From Shinella lacus (GTDB lineage: Bacteria > Pseudomonadota > Alphaproteobacteria > Rhizobiales > Rhizobiaceae), in contig NZ_WHSB02000017.1 in NCBI RefSeq assembly GCF_010994755.1, forward strand, positions 62,001-126,000: a stretch of 64,000 bases of DNA, written 5' to 3'. Positions 28,320 through 36,916 of this stretch are shown here, one piece after another (within the stretch, counting starts at the first letter, position 1; each line of letters starts with the position of its first letter). Both the position numbers and the translations under genes were made by a program. Under the pieces are notes generated by a model that ran no database searches, was not told the DNA's origin, and worked only from the letters and a program-made list of their open reading frames with translations.

Positions 28320-31300
28320 ATGACTTCAATCGTTACAAATCTTACCGTCACCCAGATCCGAAACCTTTCCTCCGCGGCAATCCAGCTCCTCAACTCCGAA
28401 GACGTACAGGCGTTGAACAGCACGCAGATCGCGGCACTCAGCTCCTCGCAGGTCAACGCATTTTCGAGCGACAGCCTTCTGGCCTTCAATTCGGACCAGA
28501 TCGGCGCGATCGCCGTCAGCGCACTCGCAGGCCTCAGCGCATCGCAGCTCGCAGCACTCGAATCCGGCCATATCAGCGGCCTCAACTCCAAGCAGATCAG
28601 CGCACTCAGCAGCGCCCAGGTCGACAGCTTCACGACCGACCAGATCGACGTGCTGAGCAGCGCGCAGATTGCCGCTCTCGGCTATGACGCCTTCACCACC
28701 ATCAACTCTGACGAGCTCGCAACCTTCACCACCGACGAAATTGCCGCCATCAGCGTCAAGGCTCTCGCAGGCCTGACGACCGACGCGCTGGCCGGCCTCG
28801 ACACCGACAAGATCACCGCGCTGAACAGCAAGCAGATCGCCGCTCTCAGCAGCGACCAGCTCGCAGCCCTCTCCTCCGATCAGGTTGCAGCGCTCACCAC
28901 CGATCAGGTTGTCGCCCTGACGGCAAAGCAGCTCTCCGGCCTCACCACCGACACCGTCGCAGCACTCAGCACCGACCAGGTGGCCGTCCTCGGCAGCAAG
29001 CAGATCGTCGCCTTCTCCAGCGCCCAGGTCGAAGCCCTGACGTCGGAACAGATCGAAGCCCTGAACAGCTCGCAGATCGCAGCCCTCGGCTCGGCAGCAC
29101 TTGCCACGATCAGCTCGGACGAACTGGCAACCTTCACCACCGACGAACTGGCCGCCATCAGCGTCAAGGCTCTGTCGGGTCTCTCCTCCGCCGCTCTCGC
29201 CGGCATCACCACCGACAACATCACTGCCCTGAACAGCAAGCAGATCGCCGCTCTCTCCACGAGCCAGATCTCGGGCCTCTCGTCCGACCAGGTTGCTGCT
29301 CTCAGCACCGACCAGGTCGTCGCCCTGACGGCAAAGCAGCTCGCTGGCCTCTCCACCGACACGGTCGCCGCTCTCAGCACCGACCAGGTGGCCGTTCTCG
29401 GCAGCAAGCAGATCGTCGCCTTCTCCAGCGCCCAGATGGCCGCCCTCACCTCCGAACAGGTCGAAGCTCTCACCAGCACGCAGATCTCGGTTCTCAGCTC
29501 GTCGGCACTCTCCACCATCAGCTCGGACGAACTGGCTACCTTCACCACGGATGAACTGGCCGCCATCAGCGTCAAGGCTCTGTCGGGTCTCTCCTCCGAT
29601 GCCCTCGCCGGCATCTCGACCGACGACATCACTGCCCTGAACAGCAAGCAGATCGCCGCTCTCTCCACGAGCCAGATCTCGGGCCTCTCGTCCGACCAGG
29701 TTGCCGCTCTCAGCACCGACCAGGTTGTCGCCCTGACGGCAAAGCAGCTCGCTGGCCTCTCTACCGACACGGTCGCCGCTCTGAGCACCGACCAGGTCGC
29801 CGTCCTCACCAGCAAGCAGATCGTCGCCTTCACGAGCGCCCAGGTCGAAGCCCTCACCTCCGAACAGGTGGAAGCTCTCACCAGCTCGCAGATCGCAGCG
29901 CTCGGCTCGTCGGCACTCTCCACCATCAGCTCGGACGAACTGGCTTCCTTCACCACCGATGAACTGGCCGCCATCAGCGTCAAGGCTCTGTCCGGTCTCT
30001 CCTCTGCCGCTCTTGCCGGTATCACCACCGACAACATCACGGCCCTGAACAGCAAGCAGATCGCCGCTCTCAGCAGCGACCAGCTCGCAGCCCTCTCGTC
30101 GGACCAGGTTGCCGCACTCTCCACCGACCAGATCGTCGCCCTGACGGTGAAGCAGCTCTCCGGTCTCTCCACTGACTCGGTCGCCGCTCTCAGCACCGAC
30201 CAGGTCGCCGCCCTCACCAGCAAGCAGATCATCGCCTTCAACTCCGGGCAGGTAGAGGCTCTCTCCTCCGAACAGATCGAAGCGCTGAACAGCTCGCAGA
30301 TCGCAGCCCTCGGCTCCTCGGCACTGTCCACCATCAGCTCCGACGAACTGGCAACCTTCACCACGGATGAGCTGGCCGCCATCAACGTCAAGGCCCTCTC
30401 GGGTCTCTCCTCCGCCGCTCTTGCCGGTATCACCACCGACAATATCACGGCCCTGGACAGCAAGCAGATCGCGGTTCTCTCCACCAGCCAGATCTCGGGT
30501 CTCTCCTCCGATCAGGTTGCAGCTCTGAGCACCACCCAGATCTCGGCTCTGACGGCAAAGCAGCTCTCGGGCCTCGCTACCGACACCGTCGCAGCCCTCA
30601 GCACCGATCAGGTTGCCGCCCTCAGCAGCAAGCAGATCGTTGCCTTCTCCAGCGGTCAGGTAGAGGCGTTCTCCTCCGAACAGATCGAAGCGCTGACCAG
30701 CTCGCAGATCGCAGCTCTCGGCTCCTCGGCACTGTCCACGATCAGCTCGGACGAACTGGCTACCTTCACCACGGATGAGCTGGCCGCCATCAGCGTCAAG
30801 GCTCTGACCGGTCTCTCCTCGGGTGCTCTTGCCGGTATCACCACCGACAACATCACTGCTCTGAACAGCAAGCAGATCGCCGCCCTGAGCAGCGCCCAGA
30901 TCTCCGGTCTCTCGACCGACCAGGTCGCAGCACTGAGCACGAGCCAGATCAACGCCCTGACCGCCAAGCAGCTCTCCGGCCTGTCCACCGACACGGTCGC
31001 AGCGCTGAGCACCGACCAGGTCGCGGCTCTCAACAGCAAGCAGATCGTTGCCTTCACCAGCAGCCAGATTGCGACCCTGACGAGCGAACAGGTCGAAGCC
31101 CTGACGCCCGGCCAGATCGCGGCCCTGAGCTCCTCGGCAATCGCAGCGATGGACGCAGACGAGATCGCCACCTTCTCGACGGCTGATATCGCAGCCATCG
31201 GCGTCAAGGCTCTCTCGGGTCTGTCCACCGACGACATCGCAGGCCTCACCTCCGACCAGGCCCGCGCCTTCACCAGCCAGCAGATCGGCGCCCTGAACAG

Positions 31301-31343
31301 CGCGCAGGTCGAAGCGGTCATCGCGGCTTACAACGACGTCTAA
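28320..31343 (+). CDS. Giant octapeptide-repeat protein between flagellin genes (unknown function)
   Basis: 1007 residues, built as MTSIVTN plus exactly 125 octads with consensus L-[ST]-[ST]-x-[QED]-[IVL]-x-[AG]. Octads form seven 136-residue units (17 octads, 408 bp) starting at 28389, 28797, 29205, 29613, 30021, 30429 and 30837. The first is degenerate, and a four-octad tail ends AAYNDV. There is no Cys or Trp, almost no Tyr, and the protein is acidic. No signal peptide, membrane segment or RTX motif is visible. The start MTSIVTN mirrors flagellin MTSILTN. ATG at 28320 has AAGGG upstream; an in-frame TTG lies at 28287. A strong terminator follows. A secreted or surface fibre, possibly glycosylated by the next gene, is inference. 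I do not recognise a named family. Confidence 0.9.
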   Translation: MTSIVTNLTVTQIRNLSSAAIQLLNSEDVQALNSTQIAALSSSQVNAFSSDSLLAFNSDQIGAIAVSALAGLSASQLAALESGHISGLNSKQISALSSAQVDSFTTDQIDVLSSAQIAALGYDAFTTINSDELATFTTDEIAAISVKALAGLTTDALAGLDTDKITALNSKQIAALSSDQLAALSSDQVAALTTDQVVALTAKQLSGLTTDTVAALSTDQVAVLGSKQIVAFSSAQVEALTSEQIEALNSSQIAALGSAALATISSDELATFTTDELAAISVKALSGLSSAALAGITTDNITALNSKQIAALSTSQISGLSSDQVAALSTDQVVALTAKQLAGLSTDTVAALSTDQVAVLGSKQIVAFSSAQMAALTSEQVEALTSTQISVLSSSALSTISSDELATFTTDELAAISVKALSGLSSDALAGISTDDITALNSKQIAALSTSQISGLSSDQVAALSTDQVVALTAKQLAGLSTDTVAALSTDQVAVLTSKQIVAFTSAQVEALTSEQVEALTSSQIAALGSSALSTISSDELASFTTDELAAISVKALSGLSSAALAGITTDNITALNSKQIAALSSDQLAALSSDQVAALSTDQIVALTVKQLSGLSTDSVAALSTDQVAALTSKQIIAFNSGQVEALSSEQIEALNSSQIAALGSSALSTISSDELATFTTDELAAINVKALSGLSSAALAGITTDNITALDSKQIAVLSTSQISGLSSDQVAALSTTQISALTAKQLSGLATDTVAALSTDQVAALSSKQIVAFSSGQVEAFSSEQIEALTSSQIAALGSSALSTISSDELATFTTDELAAISVKALTGLSSGALAGITTDNITALNSKQIAALSSAQISGLSTDQVAALSTSQINALTAKQLSGLSTDTVAALSTDQVAALNSKQIVAFTSSQIATLTSEQVEALTPGQIAALSSSAIAAMDADEIATFSTADIAAIGVKALSGLSTDDIAGLTSDQARAFTSQQIGALNSAQVEAVIAAYNDV
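28389..31244 (+). repeat. Seven tandem 408-bp units (first degenerate)
   Basis: The anchor GCCGG(C/T)(A/C)TC recurs at 28791, 29199, 29607, 30015, 30423 and 30831, with a variant at 31239, each exactly 408 bp apart. Units starting at 29205 and 29613 share more than 70 consecutive identical bases, indicating recent duplication or gene conversion. Within each unit is a 24-bp (octapeptide) sub-period. Confidence 0.95.
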
Positions 31344-31368
31344 GCCGAACATCTCGGCCTGACATGAG

Positions 31369-31399
31369 GCGGCGCGGTTCACACCGCGCCGCTTTTTTT
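31369..31399 (+). terminator. Strong rho-independent terminator after the repeat gene
   Basis: A 10-bp GC stem (GCGGCGCGGT/ACCGCGCCGC) with a 4-nt loop (TCAC) and seven T residues, 25 nt after the stop codon. It separates the repeat gene from the GT41 gene, which therefore needs its own promoter in about 31400-31515 or relies on read-through. Confidence 0.9.
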
Positions 31400-31519
31400 G
31401 CGTCCGTTTTTCGGAGTTGCGGACCGCCGGAAACGACCAGCCCGACGCAAGTCTGTTCCTGTAGCAAGGCGAACGAGCTCTTTTGCGAACCGTTCAACAG
31501 CCGTTGCCGCAGGATGTCC

Positions 31520-33565
31520 ATGACCGTCAGCACCCCCATTCACGCAGATCCGAATGCACCCCTCCTCCACCTGATGGGTCGGGCCCGCAACCAGCAGCTT
31601 TCGCTTTCGGAGCTCTTCCAGAGCGCGGAAAGCCTCAGCGCGGGCGGGCACAGGGCGCATGCGGTGGAGCTCTACAAGACCTGGATCGCCTTCAACGACA
31701 CCAACCCGCTGCTGCATCTGGCTTATTTCAACTACGCGGTTTCCCTTTCGGGCGCCGGCGACGCGGCGGGAACCATTCACGCGCTTCGCGCGGCCATCCG
31801 CATCAACCCGCAATTCGGCCAAGCCCATATCAATCTCGGCCGGACGCTGGAGGATTGCGGGCTGGTCGGGCAGGCCGTGCAGCAATGGCGCGGCTTCGTC
31901 GACACGACGGCGGACGTGACGCCGGACCGGATCAACAACCGGCTGCTCAGCCTGCAGCATATCGGCCGCGTTCTCGAAGGCACTGGCCATCTGGAAGAAG
32001 CCGAGGCAGCCCTGTGGCAGGCCATGGAACTGTTGCCGACGCGCACGGAAGCCGCGCAGCACTGGATTTCGCTGCGGATGCGCCAGTGCAAGTGGCCGAT
32101 CGTCTCCTCGTCGCTGCACATTACGCCGCGGCAGTTCATGGATGCCATGTCGTCCATGACCATCGCCTGCTACACCGACGACCCGTTCTTCCACATGGCG
32201 AAAGCCTATCGCTACTCGCAGACGGCCGTCGGCCGGCCGGCCGATCTCAAGGCCTTCGTGCGCAAGCCGGTGCGCCAGAAATCGGGCACCGGAGAGCGGC
32301 TGCGCGTCGGTTACGTCTCCTCGGACCTGCGCCAGCACGCCGTCGGCTTCGCGCTCAGCGAAGTGCTCGAACTGCACGACAAGTCGTCGGTCGAGATCTT
32401 CGCCTATTATTGCGGCGAGCCGGCGCCGATCGACAAGACGCAGGCGCGAATCAAGCAGGCGGTCGACCATTGGCGCGATATCAGCCCGCTCAGCGATCTG
32501 GACGCCGCGCGCCTGATCGCGACCGACCAGATCGACGTGCTCGTCGACGTCAACGGCTATACCAAACACGCGCGCACGAAGATTTTCGCCTACCGGCCGG
32601 CGCCCGTCATTGTCAACTTCTGCGGGTATCCGGGCACAGTTGCGAGCCCCTATCACCAGTACATGATCGCCGACGAGCACATCGTGCCGCCGGAAAACGA
32701 GATCTATTACACCGAGAAGGTCCTGCGCATTCCCTGCAACCAGCCGGTGGACCGCAAACGCCTGGTCTCGCCGCGCCCGATGCGCTCGGCCGTCGGCCTG
32801 CCGGAAAACGCTTTCGTCTTCGCCAGCTTCAACGGCATGCAGAAGATCACCGCCCCCTGCTTCCAGCGCTGGATGAGCATCCTCACCGCCACGCCGGGCA
32901 GCGTGCTGTGGCTGCTGGCCGGTGACGACAGCGTCAACGAGCGGCTCAAGCAGCTCGCGACGCAGAGCGGCATCGCGCCGGAACGAATCATCTTCGCCGG
33001 CAAGGCGCAGAACCCGGACCATCTGGCCCGAATCGGCCTCGCCGACCTCTTCCTCGACACGTTCCCCTACGGCGCGCATTCCACGGCTGCCGACGCCATC
33101 ACCCAGGGCCTGCCGGTGCTGACCGTGTCCGGCAAGAGCTTTGCGTCGCGCTTCTGCGGCAGCATCGTCACGGCGGCCGGCATTCCCGAACTGGTCTGCG
33201 CCGACCCGGACGCCTATGTGCAGAAGGCCATCGCCTTCGCCCGGAATCCGGCGAGCCTCGCGGCGGTCCGGCAATCGCTCCAGGCCCAGCGCGAGACCTG
33301 TGCGCTGCGCGACATGGACCGCCTCGCGCGCCGACTCGAAGAACTGTACTGGCAGATGCAGGGCGATGCGGAACGCGGCGAACTGCCGGTGCCGGACCTG
33401 CGCAACCTCGACGTCTATTACGAGGTCGGGGCCGAGCTTGCGGCTGCGGGCATCGAATTCGAGACCGACGAGGCCTACCGTCAGCGCTACCGGGCCGAAC
33501 TCGTTGCGCTCAACGAGCATGCTCCCCTCTATCCGGACGCGCGCCTCTGGCAGACGGCCGGTTAA
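31520..33565 (+). CDS. TPR-GT41 (SPINDLY/OGT-type) protein O-glycosyltransferase
   Basis: 681 residues. Helical TPR-like repeats (about 45-180) precede a GT41 catalytic region. Conserved landmarks align with human OGT: RVGYVSSDLRQH with His273 (OGT His498 position), DVNGYTKHAR, RPAPVIVNFCGYPGT, FASFNGMQKI with Lys442 (OGT Lys842) and DTFPYGAHST with His520 (OGT His920). It should transfer a sugar from a nucleotide donor to Ser/Thr of a protein in the cytoplasm. I take the ATG at 31520, with AGGA 5 nt upstream. The frame opens at 31364, inside the terminator region. Neighbours suggest flagellin or the octad protein as acceptor; donor and acceptor are unproven. Confidence 0.9.
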   Translation: MTVSTPIHADPNAPLLHLMGRARNQQLSLSELFQSAESLSAGGHRAHAVELYKTWIAFNDTNPLLHLAYFNYAVSLSGAGDAAGTIHALRAAIRINPQFGQAHINLGRTLEDCGLVGQAVQQWRGFVDTTADVTPDRINNRLLSLQHIGRVLEGTGHLEEAEAALWQAMELLPTRTEAAQHWISLRMRQCKWPIVSSSLHITPRQFMDAMSSMTIACYTDDPFFHMAKAYRYSQTAVGRPADLKAFVRKPVRQKSGTGERLRVGYVSSDLRQHAVGFALSEVLELHDKSSVEIFAYYCGEPAPIDKTQARIKQAVDHWRDISPLSDLDAARLIATDQIDVLVDVNGYTKHARTKIFAYRPAPVIVNFCGYPGTVASPYHQYMIADEHIVPPENEIYYTEKVLRIPCNQPVDRKRLVSPRPMRSAVGLPENAFVFASFNGMQKITAPCFQRWMSILTATPGSVLWLLAGDDSVNERLKQLATQSGIAPERIIFAGKAQNPDHLARIGLADLFLDTFPYGAHSTAADAITQGLPVLTVSGKSFASRFCGSIVTAAGIPELVCADPDAYVQKAIAFARNPASLAAVRQSLQAQRETCALRDMDRLARRLEELYWQMQGDAERGELPVPDLRNLDVYYEVGAELAAAGIEFETDEAYRQRYRAELVALNEHAPLYPDARLWQTAG

Positions 33566-33593: not shown

Positions 33594-34769
<1,176 letters not shown>

Positions 34770-34838: not shown

Positions 34839-35753
34839 TTAACGGAAGAGCTGGAGGATACCTTCGGAAGAGGAGTTGGCGATCGACAGCGACTGGATGG
34901 CGAGCTGCTGCTGGGTCTGCAGGGCCTTCAGGCGGGTCGATTCTTCGTTCATGTCGGCGTCGACGAGGCGGCCTACACCGCTGTCGATCGAGTCCGTGAG
35001 CTTGGAAACGAAGTCTTCCTGCAGGCCGATACGCATCGAGATCGAGCCAAGCTCGGCGGCTGCGCTGGTCATTGCCGAGAGCGACGTTTCGACGTCGGAG
35101 AGGAACTCGCCGATATCGGCCGGGGTCATCGTGTCGTCGAGTTCGATGTCGATGACGGCGGTGCCGGAAACGGCGCCGGCCGTACCGAGGATACCGGCGG
35201 CGAAGTCGATGTCGGTGCCATCATGGCCGAAGAGGACGTTGCCGTCGGCGGCGGAGTTGAAGGTGTAGGTGGTCGTCTTGACCGAGACGGTGTCGTCAGC
35301 GGCGCGGACGAAGCCCGAAACGACGGACTTTTCGACGGCATCTTCGCCGGCAACCCAGTTTTCGCCCGAGAAGGAAGCCGATTCTGCAATGCTGCGCAGC
35401 TGATCCTGAAGCTGGGTGAGTTCTTCCTGGATCTTCGCCTTGTCGATGCCTTCTTCCGTGGCGGCAACAAGCTTGGACTTGATTTCCTTGACGACTTCGA
35501 TCGCCGAGTCCATCGCCGCATAAGCGGTGTCTACCTTGGCGGCGCCGAGGCCGAGGGCGTCCTGAACAGCGGAAAGCGCCATGTTGTCGGAACGCATCGT
35601 GGTCGCGATCGACCAATAGGCGGCGTTGTCGGCTGCACCAGCGACGCGCAGGCCAGACGAAACGCGGGCCTGGGTTTCTTCCATGTTGCTGCCGATGGAA
35701 CGCAGGGTCTGGAGTGCGGTCATTGCCGCAATGTTCGTCAGAATGCTCGTCAT
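34839..35753 (-). CDS. flaB: Flagellin FlaB
   Basis: 304-residue filament protein with conserved ends (MTSILTNIAAMTALQTLRSIG and RLVDADMNEESTRLKALQTQQQLAIQSLSIANSSSEGILQLF). The middle region shares SVKTTTYTF and VLFGHDGTDIDFAAGILGTAG with FlaA. The true start is the ATG at 35753; the frame continues to 35831 over the leader. It is separated from flaC by the GT41/Glf/octad island. It carries the conserved leader, with a 7-nt shorter block spacing than flaA and flaC. Confidence 0.95.
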   Translation of the reverse strand: MTSILTNIAAMTALQTLRSIGSNMEETQARVSSGLRVAGAADNAAYWSIATTMRSDNMALSAVQDALGLGAAKVDTAYAAMDSAIEVVKEIKSKLVAATEEGIDKAKIQEELTQLQDQLRSIAESASFSGENWVAGEDAVEKSVVSGFVRAADDTVSVKTTTYTFNSAADGNVLFGHDGTDIDFAAGILGTAGAVSGTAVIDIELDDTMTPADIGEFLSDVETSLSAMTSAAAELGSISMRIGLQEDFVSKLTDSIDSGVGRLVDADMNEESTRLKALQTQQQLAIQSLSIANSSSEGILQLFR

Positions 35754-35790
35754 GTCTAAGGTGCCCCTTGAGTGGCTGAAACTGGGAGAA

Positions 35791-35834
35791 GGGACATTCC
35801 GGGGTCGCCGGGTAACGGTGGTCAGCATCATGCC
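35791..35834 (-). promoter_or_regulatory. Conserved flagellin leader element, flaB copy
   Basis: Read on the plus strand the blocks are GGGACATTCCGG (35791-35802), CCGGGTAACGG (35808-35818) and GCATCATGCC (35825-35834). Equivalent blocks precede flaA and flaC. It lies 38-81 nt upstream of the ATG. It may be a promoter, a 5' UTR target for FlbT, or both. Confidence 0.6.
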
Positions 35835-35933
35835 TGCTAACCGGTTAAGTTTCTTGGTTAACCCACCGTTTCGATGAGCACAGAAAACCGCATTAAGGTT
35901 AAGGAAGTCTTTAGCGCGGAATAAAAAGCAAAA

Positions 35934-35959
35934 AACCGCACCCGTTGCCGGGTGCGGTT
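35934..35959 (-). terminator. flaA terminator
   Basis: An 11-bp stem AACCGCACCCG/CGGGTGCGGTT with a 4-nt loop. On the minus strand it is followed by a T-rich tail (TTTTGCTTTTTATT). It lies about 50 nt after the flaA stop. Confidence 0.85.
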
Positions 35960-36010
35960 CTTTGTAGGGATGGGGTGCGGTCAGCCTCCGCGCCTTCCCC
36001 CGATGGTCGA

Positions 36011-36916
36011 TTAACGGAAGAGCGACAGGATGTTCTGCGATTCGCCGTTGGAGATCGAAAGCGCCTGGATGGCCAGCTGCTGCTGGGTCTGGAGCGCCTT
36101 GAGGCGGGTCGACTCTTCGTTCATGTCGGCGTCGACAAGGCGGCTAACGCCCTGGTCGATCGTGTCGGAGAGCTTCGAAAGGAAGTCGTCCTGCAGGTTG
36201 ATGCGCATGGAGATCGAGCCGAGCGTACCAGCTGCGTCCGTCATTGCGCTGAGCGCGTCTTCAACGTCGGAGAGTGCGCCCGCGAGGGCGTCGCCGTCCA
36301 TGGCGCTGATGTCGAGCGTGTAGACTTCGTTGCCTTCGGTGCCTGCGGTGCCGAGGATACCAGCGCTGGTGTCGACGTCGGTGCCATCGTGACCGAACAG
36401 CACGTTGCCGGTCGCACCGGTGTCGAGCGTGTAGGTCGTCGTCTTGACGGAGACGCCATCGTCAGCCGAGCGAACGAAGCCGGAAACGACCGTCTTGTCG
36501 CCAGCAGCGCCGGCAATCCAGTTTTCGCCGTTGAACGATGCGGATTCCGCGATGTTCAGGAGCTGTTCCTGGAGCTGGGTGATTTCCTTCTGGACCTTCG
36601 CCTTGTCAACGCCTTCTTCGGAAGCGGCAACGAGCTTGGTCTTGATCGTCTTTACGACCTCGATAGCGGCGTCCATACCGGCATAGGCGGTATCGACCTT
36701 GGCGGCACCCATGCCGAGCGCATCGGATACGGCCGAAAGAGCCATGTTGTCGGAGCGCATGGTGGTCGCGATCGACCAGTAAGCGGCGTTGTCCGAGGCG
36801 CTGCCAACGCGCAGGCCGGACGAAATGCGGCCCTGCGTCGTTTCCATGTCGTTGCCGATAGAACGCAGCGTCTGGAGAGCTGCCATTGCAGACGTGTTGG
36901 TGAGAATGCTCGCCAT
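36011..36916 (-). CDS. flaA: Flagellin FlaA
   Basis: 301-residue filament subunit, probably the principal flagellin. N terminus MASILTNTSAMAALQTLRSIG and C terminus RLVDADMNEESTRLKALQTQQQLAIQALSISNGESQNILSLF are highly conserved. The centre contains TVVSGFVRSADD, SVKTTTYTLDT and VLFGHDGTDVDTSAGILGTAG, shared with FlaB. It has its own terminator (35934-35959) and a leader with the conserved blocks. Central Ser/Thr residues are candidate O-glycosylation sites for the nearby GT41 enzyme (inference). Confidence 0.95.
   Translation of the reverse strand: MASILTNTSAMAALQTLRSIGNDMETTQGRISSGLRVGSASDNAAYWSIATTMRSDNMALSAVSDALGMGAAKVDTAYAGMDAAIEVVKTIKTKLVAASEEGVDKAKVQKEITQLQEQLLNIAESASFNGENWIAGAAGDKTVVSGFVRSADDGVSVKTTTYTLDTGATGNVLFGHDGTDVDTSAGILGTAGTEGNEVYTLDISAMDGDALAGALSDVEDALSAMTDAAGTLGSISMRINLQDDFLSKLSDTIDQGVSRLVDADMNEESTRLKALQTQQQLAIQALSISNGESQNILSLFR

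Follow-up and report, generated by a model that had tools for sequence, protein, structure and literature searches.

A GT41 glycosyltransferase gene and a gene for a protein built from ALTTAQ octads form a conserved genomic pair, and their proximity is no local accident. We propose that the enzyme works in the cytoplasm as a protein O-glycosyltransferase dedicated to one natural acceptor, the octad (ALTTAQ) protein encoded next to it. We consider this reading likely, at a probability of roughly 0.7; the linkage of the genes is shown, and the reaction is inferred.

The window, the whole stretch of 64,000 nucleotides of Shinella lacus DNA that was analysed, is part of one contig of a 7.04 Mb genome that is closest to named Shinella genomes (Rhizobiaceae). 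Between flagellar genes, it carries on the + strand the octad-repeat gene, then the GT41 gene, then glf:

28320..31343, + strand, octad-repeat protein gene (1007 aa, begins MTSIVTNL, PF20080 638 bits)
28338..31337, + strand, octad array, 125 contiguous octads in fixed register
31366..31399, + strand, terminator-like hairpin and T-tail between array and enzyme gene (13 pairs, 9 of them G-C)
31520..33565, + strand, GT41 glycosyltransferase, OGT-type, 681 aa (PF13844 E=1.7e-69; OGT and XcOGT by phmmer)
31697..32089, + strand, TPR-like N-terminal region of GT41 (TPR_17; alignment to OGT TPRs)
32291..33388, + strand, GT-B catalytic region of GT41 with aligned His/Lys/His/Asp landmarks (alignment)
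33612..34769, + strand, glf, UDP-galactopyranose mutase, collinear with GT41 (TIGR00031)

The GT41 open frame spans 31364-33565 (+). The original prediction, made from sequence alone, placed the start at the ATG at 31520, which is reasonable, as an AGG lies 6 nt upstream. It mentioned neither glf, which begins 46 nt behind the GT41 gene, nor the hairpin followed by seven T at 31366-31399 (-25.3 kcal/mol, z -4.39). The whole region holds 2 terminator-like sites versus 4.5 in shuffles, and the scan count alone is no evidence. Because the hairpin and T-tail intervene, GT41 in the window is probably co-transcribed with glf and not with the array; a single operon of array and GT41 is rejected there. 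The enzyme gene also has three flagellin genes nearby, at distances of up to about 5 kb.

The enzyme is a member of the GT41 family by its domain, with 234.9 bits for PF13844 (Glyco_transf_41) against a cut-off of 25 (E=1.7e-69). In phmmer searches it matches chains of human OGT (E about 6e-73), and its residues 70-604 align with Xanthomonas XcOGT (5.9e-72). The N-terminal TPRs that define an OGT-type GT41 are present by a weak TPR_17 match together with the alignment to OGT TPRs; TPR_17 scores 24.7 bits, barely above its cut-off of 24.4, and TPR_19 falls under its own. Residues H273, K442, H501, H520, T522, and D525 (counting the M at 31520 as 1) are invariant in 42 aligned sequences, and we take them to be the counterparts of OGT H558, K842, H901, H920, T922, and D925. 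In this manner, two claims of the original prediction hold: the His/Lys/His landmarks of O-GlcNAc transferase are aligned and invariant, and TPR repeats are present, though weak. N-glycosylation of the HMW1C type was considered for the enzyme and rejected, given an NCBIfam NGTferase equivalog score of 27.1 of 1000 bits.

The 125-octad Ser/Thr array predicted beside the enzyme also holds. Octads with the consensus A-L-[ST]-[ST]-x-Q-[ILV]-A run from residue 7 to the C-terminus, 125 in unbroken register, and the protein belongs to PF20080 (ALTTAQ_rpt; 638 bits, cut-off 26.4). It contains 274 Ser+Thr and 25 Asn overall. Ser or Thr occupies the first hydroxyl position (position 3) in 94/125 octads, the second (position 4) in 105/125, and both in 80/125. 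These two positions hold 199 sites; the earlier figure of "well over 200" was slightly high. Position 3 is made up of 94 Ser/Thr, 16 Asn, 8 Gly, and 3 Asp, 121 of the 125 octads combined. Ser, Thr, Asn, Asp, and Gly are the usual helix N-cap set.

The fold is predicted by model. AlphaFold2, run on residues 1-336 with 32 sequences (pLDDT 94.2, pTM 0.83), places one short helix in each octad, mostly at positions 4-8. The top Foldseek rows for this model are mesothelin (1.1e-05), followed by armadillo-type proteins; we claim no kinship from the fold search, as VIA Z is at most 8.0, rated background for repeats by the tool. Likewise, Pfam matches of the array to CAAP1, LRR_EndoS, DUF4351, and GspA_C39-like (E <0.001) were treated as repeat noise. 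At the named loci, a pattern search finds a comparable N-terminus, followed by at least 345 aa, in 59 of 85 octad frames. The window's octad protein opens with MTSIVTN (28320-28340) and one flagellin (34839-36916) starts MTSILTN, possibly by chance and possibly as a shared export feature. The same genome encodes a second, larger octad gene (L135 10231-17061, a frame of 2276 aa) beside which no glycosyltransferase was recognised, and unlinked arrays akin to it occur in 11 further stretches of the same genus.

The pairing of enzyme and array rests first on the two samples that are unselected, both of which include the window's own genome. One consists of 249 genomes of the order, drawn evenly and without regard to the pair. 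At a threshold of at least 560 bits for a clade-type GT41, the GT41 group is present in 11/249, and ALTTAQ arrays are present in all 11, with at least 22 matches each and one match within about 1.7 kb of the GT41 gene. ALTTAQ occurs anywhere in only 7 of the other 238, with 35 matches in one genome (G257) and 1 to 5 in the rest (Fisher p 7e-15, uncorrected for kinship). Order genomes that hold other GT41s only (E <=1e-20, hand count) have any ALTTAQ match in 2/35. The second sample comprises 41 relatives; both genes are found in the same 22 genomes and neither in 19, at a GT41 threshold of at least 49% identity; some of these 19 do have weaker matches to GT41 or TPRs.

Among named genomes, a scan yielded 74 GT41 loci, 69 of them with an octad gene nearby. 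The genomes of the other five all have ALTTAQ elsewhere; two of these loci (L074 and L077) run into a contig end, and the flanks of L068, L072, and L073 are complete and still show no nearby octad gene. The array sits on either side of GT41, on either strand, and sometimes twice; because side, strand, and copy number vary, the pair is not simply one inherited operon. The pairing recurs in at least 9 families (f1, f11, f20, f23, f26, f53, f77, f91, and f201), and most named loci with the pair have no flagellar neighbours. In f91, GT41 and array are separated by 12-15 kb or sit on different contigs, and this family seems expanded in both GT41s and arrays. In G367, a single frame of 3767 aa with several GT41 matches lies beside an octad array (L264 250-11554).

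In the phylum and class samples, clade members were sought in ALTTAQ-positive genomes; genomes picked in this way show arrays without the enzyme, not the frequency of the enzyme without arrays. Among 397 phylum genomes, 15 have at least 20 ALTTAQ matches. Nine of the 14 besides our own hold a clade GT41 (at least 780 bits); G565 has a neighbouring-group GT41 (581 bits) directly behind the array; G353, G364, and G367 have other GT41s (about 437-475 bits); and G585 has a weak match only. Among 387 class genomes, 6 besides our own have ALTTAQ, and a clade GT41 lies on the array-bearing contig in 4/6 (G974, G789, G767, and G840) and is absent in G670 and G747. Against the proposed pairing stand octad genes that are unlinked, and arrays that occur in G585, G670, and G747 in the absence of the clade enzyme. 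Two such arrays, with few position 4 hydroxyls, are found at L257 6805-11050 (G585) and L315 7476-12552 (G670).

A quick maximum-likelihood tree of 79 rows, in which other GT41s are only partly represented, was used to group the enzymes. The ALTTAQ-associated GT41s form one clade (SH-aLRT 100), and all its loci are in ALTTAQ genomes. The neighbour group (95 for the union) also comes from ALTTAQ clusters, namely that of G565 and the second GT41s of G767 and G840; the remaining GT41s in the tree fall outside the ALTTAQ-associated group. The bit-score label requires 7 changes on this tree. Duplicate frame fragments (L232, L233, L253, L311, and L312) account for low scores, and a multi-domain frame (L186) for an inflated one.

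The adjacent Ser/Thr of each octad were both proposed as candidate sites by the original prediction, and this part needs correction: the likely acceptors are mainly the second Ser/Thr, about 105 in the window's array. We read position 3 as the helix N-cap because the AlphaFold2 helix starts at position 4. N-capping explains the Ser/Thr at position 3, where 121/125 residues are of the N-cap type, and this position is rejected as the acceptor. Position 4 is modelled as the first helix residue, with a hydroxyl that the predicted fold does not need. It is the better acceptor and probably the site, a good lead and not proof; the assignment is inferred, and the linkage is unproven.

The hydroxyl constraint itself is shown. 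In an alignment of 32 sequences (A1), 94% of cells retain the position 4 hydroxyl, and 45% show an exchange between Ser and Thr; this retention is the highest of the eight positions (78% at position 3, 36% at position 5, and 21% at position 8). Within the Shinella group, the 12 arrays linked to a GT41 (57% mean identity) retain the hydroxyl in 86% of cells at position 4 and in 73% at position 3, and the 11 unlinked second arrays (64% identity) in 69% and 86%, respectively. The diverged linked arrays L066, L067, and L326 were excluded from this comparison, as were L090 and L132, whose position 4 Ser/Thr share is 0.55-0.68. A wider set of 127 arrays was divided into 78 linked and 30 unlinked, with 19 left out as second arrays at the same locus or as lying >3 kb from GT41. 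The median position 4 Ser/Thr share is 0.83 in linked versus 0.52 in unlinked arrays (p 3.3e-5), and the position 3 share is 0.74 versus 0.75. Position 5 goes in the opposite direction (0.19 linked versus 0.24 unlinked), driven by f91 arrays. Several f91 arrays were classed as unlinked (GT41 12-15 kb off, on another contig, or of low score), which biases against the position 4 effect. In genomes without GT41 beyond weak matches, the position 4 share is 0.26 (G585), 0.00 (G259), and 0.25 (G747); in G670, which has unrelated GT41s only, it is 0.27.

Some observations run contrary to this pattern. The diverged arrays L066, L067, and L326, from three Shinella species, are linked and have a position 4 share of 0.14-0.15. 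The G257 array reaches 0.97 with no clade GT41 in the assembly, the array lying at a contig end. Of 12 within-genome pairs, the linked array is favoured in 8 when position 4 or 5 counts (p 0.15 by Wilcoxon test) and in 7 when only position 4 does, and in some families position 5 rather than position 4 carries the hydroxyl (L260, L275, and L276). In addition, the difference may be inherited, since linked and unlinked arrays are partly separate lineages and are not independent by descent.

Accessory genes bear on the donor. Glf is a UDP-galactopyranose mutase by family membership (TIGR00031, 313.6 bits, cut-off 303.75), and glf was found by tblastn in 62/74 named loci; it was not found by this search in the other 12/74, some of which are cut by contig ends. 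An uncharacterised protein of 430 residues with an invariant CDDD motif is encoded downstream of GT41 in 33/74 loci, for example at L061 12097-13386. We infer from the motif that it is a glycosyltransferase. Its model (pLDDT 81.4) contains a galectin/CBM66-like sandwich, the sole part matched by Foldseek (best rows E about 2e-5), and Pfam labels the galectin-like part Methyltransf_FA. A GalE-like protein occurs in 10/74 loci and a weakly CmcI-methyltransferase-like protein in 6/74; the names FliP and GalE were assigned by eye, without a family search. The original O-GlcNAc-type framing is therefore shifted by inference: glf points to a glycan related to galactofuranose in place of plain O-GlcNAc, and the donor is unproven.

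Export is inferred and unproven. Genes for an ABC exporter with a C39-like N-terminus and for HlyD lie between the GT41s and the array in G767 and G840, and the G323 cluster contains a C39-like piece together with a relative of HlyD (43%). In the window's genome, the search turned up no close counterpart of the ABC exporter type found in these clusters (best listed match 32% identity); type I secretion is unsupported there and not excluded.

The mechanism that we propose joins these elements, and its steps are inferred. The octad solenoid would be held by the TPR region, and the Ser/Thr at octad position 4 would receive a sugar that the GT-B domain takes from a UDP donor. With ~105 sites in the window's array, the product would be a rod lined with sugars at regular steps. 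The glycan may contain galactofuranose or be extended with it, as suggested by glf; the GalE-like genes and the CDDD-motif protein with its lectin-like insert in relatives would support this. Once coated, the rod would leave the cell to serve as a surface or matrix protein, a putative role for the octad protein, and type I secretion may be the route, at least where relatives retain such genes in the cluster.

One rival explanation is that GT41 and Glf act on a polysaccharide or lipid, producing a galactofuranose surface glycan that the octad protein binds or with which it is co-exported. In its favour, some loci hold glf, GalE-like, UDP-sugar dehydrogenase, GT61, and lectin-insert CDDD proteins. 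Against it, TPR-GT41 enzymes of known function act on proteins, the position 4 hydroxyls are constrained in linked arrays, and glf went undetected in 12/74 loci (some cut by contig ends). We regard this rival as unlikely.

Flagellin is the alternative acceptor that the original prediction named, with reference to its central domains. In this rival, GT41 glycosylates the surrounding flagellins in the manner of FlmG, and the octad gene is an unrelated neighbour. Three flagellin genes do lie within about 5 kb of the window's GT41, and Caulobacter FlmG, with TPRs and a GT-B-like domain, modifies flagellins in the cytoplasm (PMC7591256). Against this, flagellin genes are neighbours in 15/74 loci versus 69/74 for octads (the flank is <5 kb in 16/74 loci of this count); the conserved flagellin link expected of an FlmG-type enzyme is absent. 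Moreover, a congener (G006) keeps its flagellins without the octad pair and has a different GT41 directly beside them. This enzyme (L139 8317-10239, 640 aa) lies between a FliP-like gene, so named by eye, and three flagellins; it is distantly related, belonging to a trio that a branch of 1.36 separates from the other sequences, and could itself be a flagellin transferase. Two GT41 lineages with two acceptors would be the simplest reading. As the main acceptor, flagellin is rejected as first choice; it remains a weaker candidate and an improbable one.

Last, the TPR protein might serve the octad solenoid as chaperone or assembly factor, its transferase activity being secondary or lost, as HMW1C has been suggested as a possible chaperone (PMC3983070) and three linked arrays have few position 4 hydroxyls, but this is very unlikely with catalytic landmarks invariant in 42 sequences, including relatives of 42-49% identity.

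The reading of GT41 as a dedicated O-glycosyltransferase of the octad protein is thus supported by conserved linkage, as is the glycosylation pair that was originally called likely, though the reaction is inferred without biochemistry. A bolder version is possible, though less likely than not: a new class of bacterial glycoprotein, an octad-only helical-screw rod in which each helix carries about one O-linked glycan containing galactofuranose. A TPR-GT41 clade that uses galactofuranose or primes for it would make this rod, which would be exported as a surface fibre. On this view, some lineages place several GT41 domains beside giant arrays.

Bacterial OGT-type GT41 enzymes are widespread, and natural acceptors are known for few. 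Here, one GT41 clade is tied to one candidate substrate family for which a site is predicted and donor genes can be tested, offering a possible natural partner for bacterial enzymes with mostly unknown targets. With its simple repeats, the octad protein would also be a useful substrate for work on how TPR enzymes read acceptors of regular structure. No report of the GT41-ALTTAQ pair was found in the open-access literature searched.

Four known systems frame the comparison. The array has a sequence match (3.4e-20) to HeliScrew4 (PDB 9zem), which shares the same octad grammar; HeliScrew4 differs in having 120 residues and frequent Pro at the array's second Ser/Thr position. Its name suggests a designed protein, and no paper on it was found in the open-access literature searched. 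Caulobacter FlmG is likewise a soluble cytoplasmic protein O-glycosyltransferase with TPRs and a GT-B-like domain (PMC7591256), but it puts pseudaminic acid on flagellins, and flagellin is no conserved neighbour of window-type GT41s. Human OGT and XcOGT share the TPR and GT-B architecture and the aligned catalytic residues; the window's enzyme differs from them in having one conserved genomic partner and linkage to glf. The closest precedent for such a partner is a GT41 encoded beside the adhesin that it glycosylates, as in HMW1C/HMW1 and EtpC/EtpA (PMC3983070). With HMW1C/HMW1, the pair shares a GT41 as dedicated cytoplasmic enzyme, one large and probably exported partner, and many sites per substrate. 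A GT41 beside its own adhesin is thus already known, but in HMW1C and EtpC it is N-linking and without TPRs; HMW1C has an AAD domain in their place, makes N-hexose links, and serves two-partner secretion (PMC3983070), whereas the window's GT41 has TPRs and a partner with 274 Ser/Thr and 25 Asn. If our reading is true, the HMW1C principle of a dedicated GT41 beside an adhesin would extend to O-glycosylation and to a helical solenoid.
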